From NCBI RefSeq assembly GCF_000018865.1, contig NC_010175.1, positions 186,001 through 250,000 on the forward strand: DNA of 64,000 nucleotides, read 5' to 3'. Positions 6,841 to 12,545 of this stretch are shown in pieces. The translations under genes were made by a program, and so were the position numbers. The stretch's first letter is position 1. The number at the start of each line of letters is the position of its first letter. The stretch comes from Chloroflexus aurantiacus J-10-fl. Its GTDB lineage: Bacteria > Chloroflexota > Chloroflexia > Chloroflexales > Chloroflexaceae. The notes below the pieces were generated by a model that saw nothing but the letters and a program-made list of their open reading frames with translations, did not search any database and was not told where the DNA came from.

Positions 6841-7362
6841 CTACTCCATCCGACGCCGTACCGACAACGAGAGTTGCAATGTCGGCCAATTCAGAACATA
6901 CGCACGCTGATCTGGTGTTTCAGGGCTTTGTGGGTGCATAGCAGCCTTTGCCACCGTTTGCCAGCGGCGGGCCACTGTTGCCAGGGCTTCGTCGCCACTA
7001 AATCCGTGGCGCACCAGCCAGCAGCCAACGGTCATGCCGGTACGGCCAACTCCACCGAGACAGTGAAGGTAGACGGTCGCGCCCCGGTTGAGCTGTTCGT
7101 CTATGGCAGCGAGGATGGCTTGCATCTGGGCCGGGGTAGCAGGCAGACCGAAATCGGGAATACTGAAACGCTGATGGTGCATGGGTGATGGTAATGCGGG
7201 CGCGTAAGACCAGGCTTCGCCCGGTGTGGTAAGATCAATGAAACAGGTGATTCCTGCGGCCTGATACCACGCAAGTCGCTGGATGTCAGCGGCGGTCGGA
7301 AAAGGATATTCCCCGGCGATAAATCTCTCTGTCACCAGATATGCGTTGGGATGAGGAAGCAT
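6841..7362 (-). CDS. Dual-specificity/tyrosine protein phosphatase-like protein
   Basis: The 173-residue protein carries the C-x5-R active-site loop in HCLGGVGRTGM (near residue 102), with the nucleophilic cysteine and phosphate-binding arginine. A general-acid aspartate may lie in FSIPDFGLP, about 35 residues earlier, as in cyclin-dependent-kinase-inhibitor-3-like and other atypical phosphatases. Substrate unknown. It is divergent from the NYN gene at 7471, so the 108-bp gap between them holds both promoters. Confidence 0.82.
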   Translation of the reverse strand: MLPHPNAYLVTERFIAGEYPFPTAADIQRLAWYQAAGITCFIDLTTPGEAWSYAPALPSPMHHQRFSIPDFGLPATPAQMQAILAAIDEQLNRGATVYLHCLGGVGRTGMTVGCWLVRHGFSGDEALATVARRWQTVAKAAMHPQSPETPDQRAYVLNWPTLQLSLSVRRRME

Positions 7363-7435
7363 AGCGTAGAACGCCGATCAATCAATCAAGGAACTATCAT
7401 TATCAACGTCACCAAAAGCAGATTATGCATATTCT

Positions 7436-7464
7436 GCTTTAACCAATCACTCTTCAGGTACAAT
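7436..7464 (+). promoter_or_regulatory. Possible promoter for a leaderless NYN-domain mRNA
   Basis: TACAAT at 7459-7464 stands six bases before the ATG at 7471, so transcription would start on or next to the start codon. The -35 region is weak (GCTTTA at 7436-7441). No Shine-Dalgarno sequence is evident, which fits a leaderless message. Confidence 0.4.
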
Positions 7465-7470
7465 ACAGAC

Positions 7471-7965
7471 ATGCCTATTTTAATCGATGGCCACAATCTG
7501 ATCGGTCAAATGCCCGACATTGAACTCAGCGATCCCGATGACGAAGCAAAGCTGGTCGCTAAACTACGTCGCTACGTCGCCAAAAAGCGTGGCCGGAAAA
7601 TTGTGGTTGTGTTTGATGGTGGTGTCTATGGTCATCCCCAAAATCTCAACGGGTTCGGAGTTGAGACACGCTTTGTTAAACCACCACAGAATGCCGACCA
7701 CGAGTTGATCAGGCAAATTCGGGCGATTCGCCGCTGCGATGAGTGGCTGGTCGTCTCCTCGGATCGGGCAGTGGTCGGTGAAGCGCAAGCCCGTGGCATT
7801 CGGGTGATGTCGGCCCAAGAGTTTGCCCGCCGTTTGCAGATGCTCGATCAGCCGCGCATCAATGCGCGTGATAAACGGGGCGACCGCCCTTTGAGTAAGG
7901 CCGAAGTCGAAGAATGGCTACGTTTTTTTGGGGTTGATGAGGACGAAGATACCTTATACTACTAA
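7471..7965 (+). CDS. NYN (YacP-like) domain protein, probable ribonuclease
   Basis: The 164-residue protein opens with MPILIDGHNLIGQM, the first conserved aspartate block of NYN/PIN-like nucleases, and has further acidic blocks in VVVFDGG and VVSSDRAVV, with the pattern seen in YacP (Rae1-type) proteins. Such proteins are metal-dependent RNases. The C-terminus is short and acidic (DEDEDTLYY). The frame is open upstream to 7351 but the domain begins at 7471, and a -10 box sits immediately before. The methyltransferase gene starts four bases after its stop, so the two may share a transcript. Confidence 0.8.
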   Translation: MPILIDGHNLIGQMPDIELSDPDDEAKLVAKLRRYVAKKRGRKIVVVFDGGVYGHPQNLNGFGVETRFVKPPQNADHELIRQIRAIRRCDEWLVVSSDRAVVGEAQARGIRVMSAQEFARRLQMLDQPRINARDKRGDRPLSKAEVEEWLRFFGVDEDEDTLYY

Positions 7966-7969
7966 CGCT

Positions 7970-8833
7970 ATGCCAGACCCGGTTACAGAACAAAACCGTC
8001 GCTCGTGGAATGCGGTTGTGCCTGCCCACGTCAGCCATCGCGCCGATGAAGCGGCGTTTCTCCGCCAGGGCGGCTCAACGCTGTTCCCCGAAGAAGTGGC
8101 CCTGCTCGGTGATGTGCGCGGTTGTCGGCTTCTGCATCTCCTCTGCAATACGGGTGCGGATAGCCTGTCGCTGGCTGCGCGTGGTGCTATCGTGACGGGG
8201 GTTGATTTGAGCGATGCCGCTATAGCTCACGCACGGGCGTTGAGTGTTGCCAGCGGTATTCCGGCTACGTTCGTGCAGGCCGATGTGTACGAGTATCTGG
8301 CTGCCGCTGCCGCAGCCAATACCCGCTTTGAACGTATCTATGCCGGCTATGGTGTTATCTGCTGGTTGCGCGACCTCACGGCCTTTGCCAATGGTATCGC
8401 ACATCTGCTGGCACCCGGTGGCCGGTTTGTGTTGATGGAGTTTCATCCGGCCTCGAATATGTTCAACGCCGACTGGCAACTGGCTTACGATTATCCACAG
8501 GGTGGTCAAACGCTGACCCTGCCCGGTGTCGGCGATTATGTTGGTGCTGCCGACGGTGGGCTATCACCGTCCGGGTTTTTGCCCGGAGTACGCGATTTTG
8601 TCAACCCAGAGCCGTGTACCCTCTATCGGTGGGGGGTTGGTGAGGTGGTGACTGCCCTGGTGCAGGCCGGCTTGCGCCTGCACGTATTGCGAGAGTATTG
8701 TTACGTTAATGGCGAGCGACCGTTCACGCGCATGGTGGCAACTCCGGAGCGCCGGATGTATCCCCCGGCAGATGTGCCTGCAATCCCGCTGATGTACGGT
8801 CTGGCTGTAGAAAAGGATACGAGCGATGGATGA
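7970..8833 (+). CDS. Class I SAM-dependent methyltransferase
   Basis: A 287-residue Rossmann-fold methyltransferase: motif I is LLHLLCNTGADSLSLA (about residues 60-75), followed by the acidic strand end VTGVDLSD and QADVYEYL. The family of this LHLxCNTGxDxLSLA type methylates small molecules; the substrate is unknown. The start at 7970 is four bases after the NYN stop, and its stop overlaps the folB start by eight bases, so it is probably translated together with folB. Its place at the head of a run of pterin-type genes makes methylation of a pterin or of a sugar on it a possibility, which is inference only. Confidence 0.82.
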   Translation: MPDPVTEQNRRSWNAVVPAHVSHRADEAAFLRQGGSTLFPEEVALLGDVRGCRLLHLLCNTGADSLSLAARGAIVTGVDLSDAAIAHARALSVASGIPATFVQADVYEYLAAAAAANTRFERIYAGYGVICWLRDLTAFANGIAHLLAPGGRFVLMEFHPASNMFNADWQLAYDYPQGGQTLTLPGVGDYVGAADGGLSPSGFLPGVRDFVNPEPCTLYRWGVGEVVTALVQAGLRLHVLREYCYVNGERPFTRMVATPERRMYPPADVPAIPLMYGLAVEKDTSDG

Positions 8834-9209
8834 GTGGGGGATTGGGCACGACCGGATCATTCTGAGCGGGATGCAGTTTATCGGTTACCATGGCACTCGC
8901 CCCGAAGAGAATCGACTCGGCCAGCGCTTTGTGGTTGATGTAGCCGTCCAGCTTGATTTGCAGGCAGCCGGTGTAAGCGATGATTTGAGTCAGACGGTTG
9001 ACTACAGTCAGATTCACGACCGGGTGCGCGAGATTGTCTGTGGGCCACCGCTCAAACTAACCGAGGCCGTCGCCGAGCGGATTGCCGCTGCCGTCTTGCA
9101 CGATCATCCGACGATAGTCGCAGTAGCGGTGCGGGTGACGAAACCGGGAGTGCGGTTGGGCGAGACAATCCTCGCCGGTTCGATGGTAGAAATTGTGCGG
9201 CGAAGATGA
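8826..9209 (+). CDS. folB: Dihydroneopterin aldolase FolB
   Basis: A 127-residue protein with the FolB/tunnelling-fold pattern: IILSGMQFIGYHGTRPEE near the N-terminus, DLSQTVDYSQIHD in the middle, LTEAVAERIA with the conserved glutamate, and VAVRVTKPG near the end. FolB converts 7,8-dihydroneopterin to 6-hydroxymethyl-dihydropterin and glycolaldehyde in folate synthesis, and some members also epimerise the side chain. The start overlaps the methyltransferase end by eight bases, and its TGA overlaps the next ATG (ATGA), so the genes are translationally coupled. None of the other canonical folate genes are adjacent, which leaves room for a role in another pterin. Confidence 0.87.
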   Translation: MDEWGIGHDRIILSGMQFIGYHGTRPEENRLGQRFVVDVAVQLDLQAAGVSDDLSQTVDYSQIHDRVREIVCGPPLKLTEAVAERIAAAVLHDHPTIVAVAVRVTKPGVRLGETILAGSMVEIVRRR

Positions 9210-9871
9210 TGCGTCCTCGGGTTACGCTATGTTTTGCCCAAACCCTCGATGGTCGGGTGGCAGCCGTTGACGGCAGCTCGCAGTGGATCAGCGGCCCCGA
9301 ATCGCTCCGCTTTTGTCATCACCTGCGGGCAAACAGTGATGCGATTATGGTTGGGGTTGGTACGGTGTTACGCGATGATCCACGCCTCACCACGCGGCTG
9401 GTAGCAGGGCCTGATCCCTTGCGGGTGATTGTAGACACCCATCTCCGCACACCAACGACCGCTGCCGTCATTCGTGATGGTGCCGGCACGGGTACCCTGC
9501 TGGCCTGCACTGCTGCGGCGCCGCTTGAACGACGTATCGCCTTACAGGAATGCGGCGCGACGGTGCTGACTATGCCGGAAGCGGCTGGCGGTGGTGTCGA
9601 TCTGGCAGCACTCCTCACAGCGCTCGGCGAACGGGGTGTGGCGAGTGTGATGGTTGAAGGTGGTGCGCGCCTGATCACGAGTCTGCTGCGCGCAAACCTG
9701 GTTGATGCGCTGGCAGTCACGATTGCGCCGATCATCCTCGGTAGTGGGCCGTCAGCTATCGGCGATCTGGGCATCCTCACGCTAAATCAGGCTCTGCGAC
9801 TGACGAACGTCACCTGGACGACGTATGGCGCTGATGTGGTGATCGAAGGCGATCTGGCACACCATCAGTAG
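9206..9871 (+). CDS. RibD C-terminal-domain (DHFR-fold) pyrimidine/pterin reductase
   Basis: A 221-residue stand-alone reductase domain: RVTLCFAQTLDGRVAA at the N-terminus, SDAIMVGVGTVLRDDPRLT, then MVEGGARLITSLL near residue 150 are the landmarks of RibD-C reductases. In riboflavin synthesis this domain reduces the ribosylamino side chain with NADPH; here the deaminase half of RibD is absent. It could be a free reductase of riboflavin synthesis, an archaeal-type diaminopyrimidine reductase, or a reductase of a pterin product made with its neighbours. It is coupled to folB by an ATGA overlap, and 25 bp separate it from the dehydrogenase gene. Confidence 0.8.
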   Translation: MMRPRVTLCFAQTLDGRVAAVDGSSQWISGPESLRFCHHLRANSDAIMVGVGTVLRDDPRLTTRLVAGPDPLRVIVDTHLRTPTTAAVIRDGAGTGTLLACTAAAPLERRIALQECGATVLTMPEAAGGGVDLAALLTALGERGVASVMVEGGARLITSLLRANLVDALAVTIAPIILGSGPSAIGDLGILTLNQALRLTNVTWTTYGADVVIEGDLAHHQ

Positions 9872-9896
9872 CAATCAGCGAAGCAGTCAAGACGGT

Positions 9897-10919
9897 ATGA
9901 AACCCTTACCCGCGCAAGCCATCTGGTTTACCGCCCCCCACACGGTGAGCATCCGTGAGGAGATTGCTCCACCACCGGCTTACGGTGACGTGCGGATCGC
10001 AGCTATTGCATCGTTGATCAGTCACGGCACCGAACGCCTGGTCTATCGCGGTGAGGTCGATCCAACCCTGGCCCTCGATCTCCCAACGCTGCAAGGAAGT
10101 TTTGCCTTTCCCATCAAATACGGTTACGCCATCGCCGGCAGAGTCATCGACATTGGCCCAGGGGTTGAGCAGTTTCAGATTGGTGATCCGGTCGCGGCCC
10201 TCCATCCGCACCAGACTATCTTCACCCTACCGGCGCATCTGGTCAAACGGCTACCGGACACCCTTGATCCGGCATTGGGTGGGTTCTACGCCAATGTCGA
10301 AACAGCGCTGACGATTTGCCACGATGCAGCACCAAGGCTGGGAGAAACTGTCGTTGTGCTGGGACAGGGTGTGGTTGGCTTGCTGGTCACACAGCTCTTG
10401 CAACGAACCGGTGCGCAGGTGATTGCGGTCGAACCCGATGCGCATCGTCGGGCGCTGGCCACCCAATTCGGTGCCACGACCCTTGCCCAGGCTGATCCGG
10501 CAACCATTGCCGAACTTACCGATGGACGGGGGGCCGATATAGTGGTTGAGGTGAGCGGGTCACCGGCTGCGTTACAACAGGCGATTGAACTAACAGCGAC
10601 AGAGGGGCTGGTGGTGGTTGCATCGTGGTACGGGCAAAAACCGGCACCACTGATCCTGGGAGGGCATTTTCACCGTGGTCGGGTACGCCTGCGCTCATCG
10701 CAGGTTGGTCGGCTGGCTCCAGAAACGCTGCCACGCTGGGATTACGCACGGCGGAGCGCCACCGTGATGAACCTCTTACCGCGCCTATGCCTGAACGAGT
10801 TGATCAGCCACCGCATTCCTTTCGTGCAAGCCGCAGCAGCGTATGATCTGCTTGATCAGGCACCGCCAGGGCTGGTACAGGTGATGTTGACGTATGCTGA
10901 TTACGCACCACAAACGTGA
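9897..10919 (+). CDS. Medium-chain dehydrogenase/reductase lacking the catalytic zinc ligands
   Basis: The 340-residue protein has the MDR fold: an N-terminal GroES-like half (SLISHGTERLVYRGE, FPIKYGYAIAGRVIDIG) and a Rossmann half with VVLGQGVVGLL near residue 155 and ADIVVEVSG. The cysteine and GHE motif that bind catalytic zinc in alcohol dehydrogenases are not where they should be (ISHGTE and KYGYA instead), so it should not act as an ordinary zinc alcohol dehydrogenase. It resembles the BchC/threonine-dehydrogenase-like group in general layout. Substrate unknown; context suggests oxidation or reduction of a pterin or sugar side chain. Confidence 0.75.
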   Translation: MKPLPAQAIWFTAPHTVSIREEIAPPPAYGDVRIAAIASLISHGTERLVYRGEVDPTLALDLPTLQGSFAFPIKYGYAIAGRVIDIGPGVEQFQIGDPVAALHPHQTIFTLPAHLVKRLPDTLDPALGGFYANVETALTICHDAAPRLGETVVVLGQGVVGLLVTQLLQRTGAQVIAVEPDAHRRALATQFGATTLAQADPATIAELTDGRGADIVVEVSGSPAALQQAIELTATEGLVVVASWYGQKPAPLILGGHFHRGRVRLRSSQVGRLAPETLPRWDYARRSATVMNLLPRLCLNELISHRIPFVQAAAAYDLLDQAPPGLVQVMLTYADYAPQT

Positions 10920-11110
10920 ACGATGGGAGTGATAGGCCCGCCGGAATCGCTCTCGTCCCTGGGCCGTGCTGGTGTGGTGACCAGCCGGGGTGCAGCGAAC
11001 GAAAACTATCGTCTGTAAGGATGCGATACATCCCAATAACACGGGCCAGTAGAAGATGGCCCGGATTTCTGAGAAGCGAAGACCTCGCGCTCTGTGCAAA
11101 GGAGACACGT

Positions 11111-11491
11111 ATGTATGAAGTCGGCGTCATTGCCCAGTTTGAAGCGGCTCATCGTTTGGAAGGGAACTTCGGCCCAGCCACCCGGATGCACGGGCATACC
11201 TACCGGCTGGAGGCGATTGTGAGCGGGGAGCGTCTGCAAGCGGACGGCACCCTCTTCGACATTACACGCCTGCAAGAGGCGGTCAACGCCATCGTTGCCG
11301 ACCTGCACTACCGTGATTTGGGTACTGTCGCCGGTCTGGAGAACGTGAATACCACTGCTGAAAACGTGGCGCGCTATTGCTGGGATCGGATTGCGGCTGC
11401 CATTCGTGGCGTTGGTTTAATGACGCTCACCGTGCGCATCTGGGAAAATCCGCAAGCCTTCGCCAGTTATCAGAGCAGGCTGGAAGGATGA
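11111..11491 (+). CDS. 6-pyruvoyltetrahydropterin synthase/QueD-like protein without the catalytic cysteine
   Basis: A 126-residue tunnelling-fold protein. The zinc ligands are visible as AAHRL near residue 13 and the HGH of RMHGHTY near residue 29, and the TTAENVARYCWDRI helix and WENPQAFASY end are typical. The cysteine that QueD/PTPS proteins carry four residues before HGH (C-x3-HGH) is replaced by alanine (GPATRMHGH), so canonical PTPS or QueD chemistry is doubtful. The start at 11111 is set by AAAGGAG 7-13 bases upstream; the frame is open back to 10916 but that stretch is unlike the family. Four bases separate its stop from the glycosyltransferase start. Confidence 0.82.
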   Translation: MYEVGVIAQFEAAHRLEGNFGPATRMHGHTYRLEAIVSGERLQADGTLFDITRLQEAVNAIVADLHYRDLGTVAGLENVNTTAENVARYCWDRIAAAIRGVGLMTLTVRIWENPQAFASYQSRLEG

Positions 11492-11495
11492 AGGT

Positions 11496-12545
11496 ATGGC
11501 CCTGCGCATTGCGTTTCTCACCGTCGGCGATCCGCAACGGCGTACCGGCGGCTACCTCTACCATCGCGAGGTCTTTCGGTGCTGGCAGGCTCGCAATCAA
11601 CCGGTCGAGGAGATTGTGCTGGGGCCGGCGGATGTAGCCGGACAGATCGCGGCCAGCAACCGGGCCGGCCAACTGGTTGAGGCAGGCCGCTATGATGTGA
11701 TTGTGGTTGATGCGCTGGCCCGCGCCGTCGTGGCTCCCTGGCTGGCGCACTGGCAGAGGCTGTGTCCGCTGGTGACGCTGGTTCACGAACTGCCGACAGT
11801 TGCCGGAGCAAGCGATCCGCGCGAGTACGAATGGGAACAGATGCTACTACGGGCTGATGCGCTGGTTGCAGTCAGCGATGATGGGGCTAACACGTTAATT
11901 GCGCGCGGCGTTGAAGCTGCCCGCATTCATATCGCTTCTGGCGGTTGTGACCGTCTGCTGAGTCGGATGCCGGTTGGCAAAGCGCGGGAAGAGCTGGTTA
12001 TCGCCGTCGCCCAATGGATTCCGCGCAAAAATCTGGCCCATCTGGTACGGGTGTGGGGGCAGGTAGCAGAGCATCCCTGGCGGCTGGAGCTGATCGGTGA
12101 AAGCGATGCCGATCCGGTGTATGCCGGTGAGGTCTGGCAGGCCATCCAGCACTGTCCGGCCAACGTGATTGTGCGTGGCGTCCTTGCAGATGACGAACTT
12201 GCCGAACGCTATGCGCGGGCCAGTCTGTTTGCCTTACCTTCGCGGTTTGAAGGGTATGGATTGGTCTTTGCCGAAGCGTTAGCTTGTGGGTTGCCGGTGA
12301 TCGCCGGCGCAGTCGGGCCGGTACCAGCCCTGGTTGGCGCTGGGGGAATGCTCGTTCATCCCGATGACGAGCAGGCATTGAGCGTTGCCTTACGCACTGT
12401 AATGCGCGACGCACACCTGCGTCAGCACTTGAGCACTGCTGCCCGGCAACGAGCAAGTACCCTCCCACGCTGGCAGGACACTGCCCAACACCTCTTATGC
12501 GCCATCGAATGGGCATACGCGCAGCGACATCGCGTATCAACCTGA
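11496..12545 (+). CDS. GT-B glycosyltransferase, family 4 type
   Basis: The 349-residue protein starts with a first Rossmann strand (RIAFLTVGDP), keeps the acceptor-side GGYLYHREVF loop, and ends with the donor-binding half: VAQWIPRKNL, LPSRFEGYGLVFAEALACG (the E-x7-E motif of retaining GT4 enzymes) and GLPVIAG. It should move a sugar from a nucleotide donor to an unknown acceptor in the cytoplasm. GGAAGGATGAAGGT lies directly upstream, and the gene begins four bases after the PTPS-like stop, so it is almost certainly co-transcribed with it. That pairing suggests a glycosylated pterin-like product. Confidence 0.83.
   Translation: MALRIAFLTVGDPQRRTGGYLYHREVFRCWQARNQPVEEIVLGPADVAGQIAASNRAGQLVEAGRYDVIVVDALARAVVAPWLAHWQRLCPLVTLVHELPTVAGASDPREYEWEQMLLRADALVAVSDDGANTLIARGVEAARIHIASGGCDRLLSRMPVGKAREELVIAVAQWIPRKNLAHLVRVWGQVAEHPWRLELIGESDADPVYAGEVWQAIQHCPANVIVRGVLADDELAERYARASLFALPSRFEGYGLVFAEALACGLPVIAGAVGPVPALVGAGGMLVHPDDEQALSVALRTVMRDAHLRQHLSTAARQRASTLPRWQDTAQHLLCAIEWAYAQRHRVST

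Follow-up and report, generated by a model that had tools for sequence, protein, structure and literature searches.

The stretch of DNA analyzed here (the window) comprises 64,000 nucleotides of the Chloroflexus aurantiacus J-10-fl genome (contig positions 186,001 to 250,000) and carries, at positions 7970 to 12545, six intact genes of an operon that appears to code for a pathway to a glycosylated pterin-like compound. A first-pass annotation had described six genes on one strand, several of them overlapping or closely spaced, which is what we found: all are on the plus strand, and the intergenic distances from the first gene to the last are -8, -4, +25, +191 and +4 bases, the gap between the dehydrogenase and the PTPS-like gene being the only large one. 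These six do not form a fixed unit, as the conserved core consists of the third to sixth genes, while FolB and the methyltransferase of the window are accessory.

7970..8833, plus strand: class I SAM-dependent methyltransferase (MT), 287 aa; Pfam Methyltransf_25/11/12; Chloroflexales-type, accessory
8826..9209, plus strand: FolB, dihydroneopterin aldolase/epimerase family, 127 aa; Pfam FolB, 108 bits; starts inside the MT gene, with an 8-base overlap
9206..9871, plus strand: stand-alone RibD_C reductase without a deaminase domain, 221 aa; Pfam RibD_C, 184 bits
9897..10919, plus strand: zinc-less medium-chain (MDR) dehydrogenase (ADH), BchC-like, 340 aa; Pfam ADH_zinc_N, 73 bits
11111..11491, plus strand: PTPS-like T-fold protein lacking the catalytic cysteine (PTPS'), 126 aa; PF01242 (PTPS), 106 bits
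11496..12545, plus strand: retaining glycosyltransferase of the GT4 family, 349 aa; Glyco_trans_1_4 (86 bits) and the GT-B domain Glycos_transf_1; EX7E motif intact

Protein families of the operon

In PTPS', the catalytic Cys is replaced by Ala23 and the catalytic His by Tyr67, with the zinc ligands His14/27/29 and the pterin-anchoring Glu112 retained, so that the earlier term "cysteine-less PTPS" was correct and even understated, as the catalytic His has been lost as well. In a residue survey of 111 PTPS' sequences, the Cys position is occupied by Ala (108), Glu (2) or Ser (1), the catalytic His is found in none, and both Glu112 and Glu84 are kept in all of them. The loci of the type represented by SCO6650 of Streptomyces coelicolor were retrieved with patterns that in part prescribe Ala at the Cys position, so independent evidence for the loss of the catalytic residues comes from the His, which the patterns do not affect, and from the Chloroflexota loci, which were retrieved by homology. 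PTPS' scores below the cut-offs of both curated models (60.8 versus 89.25 bits for TIGR03367, the QueD model, and 57.9 versus 125.5 bits for TIGR00039). From its sequence and modeled fold, we can place it in the QueD/PTPS class by its T-fold, zinc site and anchoring Glu, and outside it by the catalytic triad and the equivalog cut-off.

The best match of PTPS' in both sequence (E value of 1.4e-13) and fold (TM score of 0.90 for an AlphaFold2 model with a pLDDT of 94) is SCO6650, whose structure is 3d7j; TM scores to 3d7j and QueD range from 0.80 to 0.90. The genomic neighborhood of PTPS' is likewise closest to that of the SCO6650-type homologs. Like the window protein, SCO6650 has lost both the catalytic Cys and His, but it has also lost the third zinc His (HGA versus HGH). 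The SCO6650 type forms a single clade (support of 100) and is a pan-bacterial sister subtype, with the window PTPS' lying outside it among the Chloroflexota-type proteins; all three His of the zinc triad are present in proteins of the Chloroflexota and haloarchaeal types, and the third is replaced by Ala in the SCO6650 type. A dehydrogenase search retrieved 14 further loci (L172 to L185) with a second PTPS' subtype, characterized by the motif GGDWGxEN..SHHY. A review lists an unresolved PTPS-V subgroup (PMC5041015), which may or may not be the PTPS' clade. Our literature search found no paper on the gene cluster or on SCO6650, and no NCBIfam model names the cluster.

The RibD-type reductase of the first-pass annotation is indeed a RibD_C protein that lacks the deaminase domain. 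It exceeds the cut-off of TIGR00227 (192.1 versus 150 bits) and does not reach that of the archaeal equivalog TIGR01508 (147 versus 186). Its best PDB matches are 6p8c and 2azn, reductases of 2,5-diamino-6-ribosylamino-pyrimidinone 5'-phosphate (DARPP), and the DDP/DNP and VEGG motifs are conserved among its homologs. Judged by these sequence features, it fits the RibD_C/DARPP reductase family.

The dehydrogenase had been described as zinc-less, and the alignment agrees: the positions taken as the zinc ligands Cys46 and His67 are occupied by Ser in 96/96 homologs and by Tyr or Phe in 95/96. The NAD-binding GxGxxG motif is kept in 96/96, with an acidic residue after the second strand, and the nearest folds of the AlphaFold2 model (pLDDT of 91.8) are threonine, butanediol and sorbitol dehydrogenases. 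Among curated models spanning most of its length, the closest chemistry-bearing relative is BchC (72.1 bits against TIGR01202, with a cut-off of 291.25). ADH is not BchC, as the scores of 72 and 45 bits are far from the cut-off of 291, and the ADH family is present in nonphototrophs. In GT4, the EX7E motif is conserved in 97/98 homologs. The MTs found beside the core in other lineages are of a different, nonmatching type, and we detected no loci shared between the window-type MT and that of the pan-bacterial clusters.

Conservation and distribution of the core

We searched 400 Chloroflexota genomes and found PTPS' orthologs (41 to 86% identity) in 26, including that of the window; the neighbors were examined at 25 loci. 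Beside PTPS', these loci code for ADH (22), GT4 (22), RibD_C (20), FolB (10) and the window-type MT (10), and the order RibD-ADH-PTPS'-GT4 is kept in distant Chloroflexota at 45 to 58% identity. Whether the genes stay together in relatives can be answered in the affirmative for the core. At the loci of the second PTPS' subtype, ADH accompanies PTPS' in 14/14 and GT4 adjoins in 13/14. Four of them (L176, L178, L179 and L182, of Anaerolineae type) carry GTP cyclohydrolase II (GCHII), RibD_C, ADH, PTPS', GT4 and MT as a single run, and since all six genes are contiguous in these operons, direct reconstitution is practical.

Outside this phylum, a scan of a genome collection gave at least 595 pattern matches, at least 556 of them encoding a relative, and the best 80 were analyzed for neighbors. 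These 80 loci belong to Actinomycetota, Pseudomonadota, Acidobacteriota, Chloroflexota, Planctomycetota and Gemmatimonadota, and their partner genes are GT4 (78), ADH (73), RibD (60), MT (53), CDP-alcohol phosphatidyltransferase (42), GCHII (32), an LPG_synthase_TM-like, flippase-like protein (24), a sulfatase/LTA-synthase-like protein (22) and creatininase (16). The CDP-alcohol phosphatidyltransferase and creatininase genes are additional components of the SCO6650-type clusters. Plasmids also carry the set: ADH-PTPS'-GT4-MT in Haloarcula sinaiiensis, where creatininase and CDP-alcohol phosphatidyltransferase genes lie close by; ADH-PTPS'-GT4-MT with a RibD-family gene and, again, CDP-alcohol phosphatidyltransferase in Thiodictyon; and ADH-PTPS'-MT in Halobellus. 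Since the same neighbors recur around distant homologs in many phyla, and no core partner was found at the five loci of ordinary QueD or true PTPS that served as controls, the cluster is not a chance arrangement. The link to phototrophs that had been suggested does not survive, as carriers include Halomonas, Variovorax, Terrabacter, Micromonospora, Acidobacteria and Haloarcula, and this distribution rejects a phototroph-specific pathway.

FolB is restricted to Chloroflexales and a few neighbors, while the core persists without it in most phyla. Within the Chloroflexota family f1 (41 genomes), the window-type FolB is present in 15, all of them ADH positive, and absent from 5 ADH-positive and all 21 ADH-negative genomes. 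Using the profile, we found a FolB of any kind in 17/41 genomes, 15 of the 17 being of window type and adjoining the cluster where checked, and none in the other 24. This distribution indicates that FolB follows the cluster and not the need for folate. The genomes that lack FolB presumably still require folate, which implies that they use an alternative folate step. The window FolB, which exceeds the cut-off of TIGR00525 (94.2 versus 72.15 bits), is the only one in the home genome, and it may serve both the cluster and folate synthesis.

A proposed route from GTP to a glycosylated pterin-like compound

The entry enzyme is probably encoded elsewhere in the home genome. Besides RibBA, we found a second, stand-alone GCHII (C1:453,638), located 2 bases behind an MFS transporter gene. 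The same MFS-GCHII pair adjoins the cluster in three related genomes (L042, L044 and L047), which ties the displaced GCHII to the pathway, and at three other loci (L050, L051 and L056) GCHII lies immediately upstream of RibD_C. These arrangements make GTP to DARPP to the ribityl form the likely entry, instead of FolE. FolE was considered as the entry enzyme and rejected, since in the home genome it sits (3,530,008) not in the cluster but in a biopterin-type operon (C1:3,528,999-3,531,500; L066:7946-10445) with an SDR and a Cys-bearing dual-domain PTPS, whose second domain carries GKCNNPNGHGHNY; this row of genes is likely a tetrahydrobiopterin operon. The riboflavin genes, a RibD-type frame of 435 aa (2,998,419) and a 410-aa GCHII frame (3,000,336), are likewise separate. 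The original remark that this mix of six genes does not fit folate or riboflavin synthesis is supported.

SCO6655, a GCHII paralog encoded near SCO6650, reportedly stops at a formylated intermediate. As a general rule for the cluster, such an arrest is not supported, as the equivalent of Escherichia coli Tyr105 is kept in 39/40 of the GCHIIs; the three zinc Cys residues are kept in 40/40. The creatininase gene of the pan-bacterial clusters fits the pathway, because a creatininase-family formamidase yields DARPP in the riboflavin synthesis of Sinorhizobium (PMC9478397).

Sequence data establish which genes belong to the set, how well they are conserved and what state their catalytic residues are in, and they lead us to propose the following reactions. 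GCHII would open GTP to DARPP, and the RibD_C reductase would turn the ribosyl group of DARPP into a ribityl chain without deamination, so that the 2-amino group of the pterin would be kept; we consider this part quite probable. The NAD-type zinc-less ADH would then oxidize a secondary alcohol of the ribityl chain, most simply the C2'-OH, and the resulting ketone would condense with the 5-amino group to give a dihydroneopterin-type 7,8-dihydropterin ring, so that oxidation and ring closure together would replace the Amadori rearrangement of FolE with redox chemistry. The triad-less PTPS' would hold the ring through its Glu and aid ring closure or tautomerization, and in Chloroflexales, FolB would then trim or epimerize the side chain. 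Last, GT4 would add a sugar and MT a methyl group, and a glycoside as the product appears rather likely. The model would explain why riboflavin-type and pterin-type families occur together and why the deaminase is absent, as well as the retention of only the ring-anchoring Glu in PTPS' and the recruitment of FolB in Chloroflexales.

We therefore put forward, at a level midway between doubt and acceptance, that the operon may be the Chloroflexus version of a widespread pathway to a GTP-derived, glycosylated 2-amino-4-oxo-pteridine with a riboflavin-type entry. Of the methylated or glycosylated pterin-like product that had been predicted, a glycosylated pterin-like compound is still the best reading, while GCHII as the entry enzyme had been missed. 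Several points weigh against it. Dehydrogenation and ring closure as drawn are tentative and somewhat doubtful, oxidation at C2' followed by closure being a matter of chemical logic. GCHII is within reach in only 32/80 of the best loci and 8/25 of the Chloroflexota loci, and its part could be taken by a housekeeping GCHII. One locus (L186; G250:C80) has the run GCHII-RibD_C-ADH-GT4 in a genome with no PTPS' gene at the threshold used, so PTPS' may be dispensable or replaced; its role may also differ between subtypes, as the zinc site is intact in one and lost in another. The strong correlation between the pairwise distances of PTPS', ADH and GT4 (Mantel r of 0.86 to 0.91; 0/500 permutations) speaks for the model but is partly a species-tree effect. 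Finally, FolB has no second copy in the home genome and could just be its ordinary folate enzyme.

Among the alternatives, the product could keep its ribityl chain and be a flavin-like, lumazine-like or ribityl-aminopyrimidine glycoside, with ADH acting on the sugar. GCHII and RibD_C are riboflavin-pathway families, the cluster of L057 carries a full RibD, and the creatininase-type formamidase also belongs to riboflavin synthesis (PMC9478397). We consider this unlikely all the same, as the cluster reductases lack the deaminase domain, neither RibH nor RibE is among the recurrent families, PTPS' keeps the Glu that anchors the 2-amino-4-oxo ring in PTPS and QueD, and the gene inserted into the Chloroflexales operon, FolB, is a dihydropterin enzyme. 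The membrane genes found in other lineages (CDP-alcohol phosphatidyltransferase, flippase-like and sulfatase-like) suggest a membrane destination there, and they could even be the point of the cluster, the pteridine being glycosylated and then joined to a lipid or surface polymer. Their frequency among the best 80 loci and the presence of the phosphatidyltransferase in haloarchaeal and Thiodictyon plasmid clusters speak for such an envelope conjugate; yet neither the window cluster nor any of the 25 Chloroflexota-type loci examined contains one of these genes, and some lie on the strand opposite to the core, which leaves it little probability.

We disfavor a role in the synthesis of folate, riboflavin, biopterin or queuosine. 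A housekeeping folate or biopterin operon, in which FolB makes 6-hydroxymethyl-dihydropterin and the other genes are incidental, would suit a sole FolB that exceeds the equivalog cut-off, but it is hard to reconcile with the biopterin-type set of FolE, Cys-bearing PTPS and SDR located elsewhere, with the 24/41 family genomes that have no FolB and the 15/17 FolB genomes that bear the cluster, or with a core that does without FolB in most phyla, and we regard it as quite improbable. Automatic annotation names the homologs of PTPS' 6-carboxytetrahydropterin synthase, which would make PTPS' a QueD and the product queuosine or another 7-deazapurine. We rejected this role on the QueD score and the lost catalytic residues; with no QueE-, QueC- or QueF-type gene among the recurrent neighbor families, it is highly improbable.

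Related systems and genomic context

Cyanobacteria and green sulfur bacteria make biopterin glucosides with FolE, PTPS-II, an SDR and a glycosyltransferase. A glycosylated pterin would be the expected end product in both cases, but the cluster lacks FolE and SDR, its PTPS is of an inactive type, and the home genome has a separate biopterin-type operon. The toxoflavin pathway, a case of specialized metabolism from GTP-derived pteridines, begins with GCHII, as the cluster pathway probably does, and uses a methyltransferase; it is not known to include a T-fold protein, dehydrogenase or GT4. Archaeal and fungal riboflavin synthesis and the archaeal F420 entry (GCHIII or GCHII, ArfB and DARPP reductase) share with the cluster the deaminase-free DARPP-type reductase, GCHII as the probable first step and, in some clusters, a creatininase-family deformylase; they continue with a deaminase, RibH and RibE, whereas the cluster continues with the dehydrogenase, T-fold protein and glycosyltransferase. 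The pepteridine cluster (PMC5384830) is likewise specialized metabolism from GTP-derived pteridines, but its NRPS-like gene is absent from the window cluster.

We found no described product for this gene set, which is present in several hundred genomes of bacteria and in some haloarchaea. As a conserved and covarying set shared by Chloroflexus, actinomycetes, Halomonas and haloarchaea, it is a good candidate for an unrecognized cofactor or protective pigment, and it would supply a function for the orphan structure of SCO6650 as well as for many genes misannotated as QueD. It possibly represents a second way of making pterins. In its strongest form, this would be a FolE-independent route in bacteria and archaea that uses GCHII, a DARPP reductase and a BchC-like dehydrogenase, the product being a glycosylated and, in many lineages, membrane-linked pterin cofactor common to several bacterial phyla and haloarchaea, which we consider speculative and on balance unlikely.

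Some smaller features of these loci were also observed. In the home genome, the MFS gene ahead of the displaced GCHII (L004:123-1471, at ~453 kb) is split into two overlapping frames; it is one continuous frame in L042 and L044, and we read the split as a frameshift or sequencing error. The 191 bases between ADH and PTPS' (window 10920-11110) have no match in the loci of sister species, unlike the rest of the operon, and may therefore be a recent insertion. In three Chloroflexus species (L037, L038 and L040), a gene for a membrane protein of ~650 aa intrudes beside the PTPS' gene, and in L040 it is flanked by duplicate copies of the PTPS' gene and of the 5' end of GT4. Upstream of the operon, a YacP-like NYN-domain nuclease gene (window 7351-7965) ends 4 bases ahead of the MT gene; its position is the same in L047 and in other Chloroflexus, and it is possibly cotranscribed.

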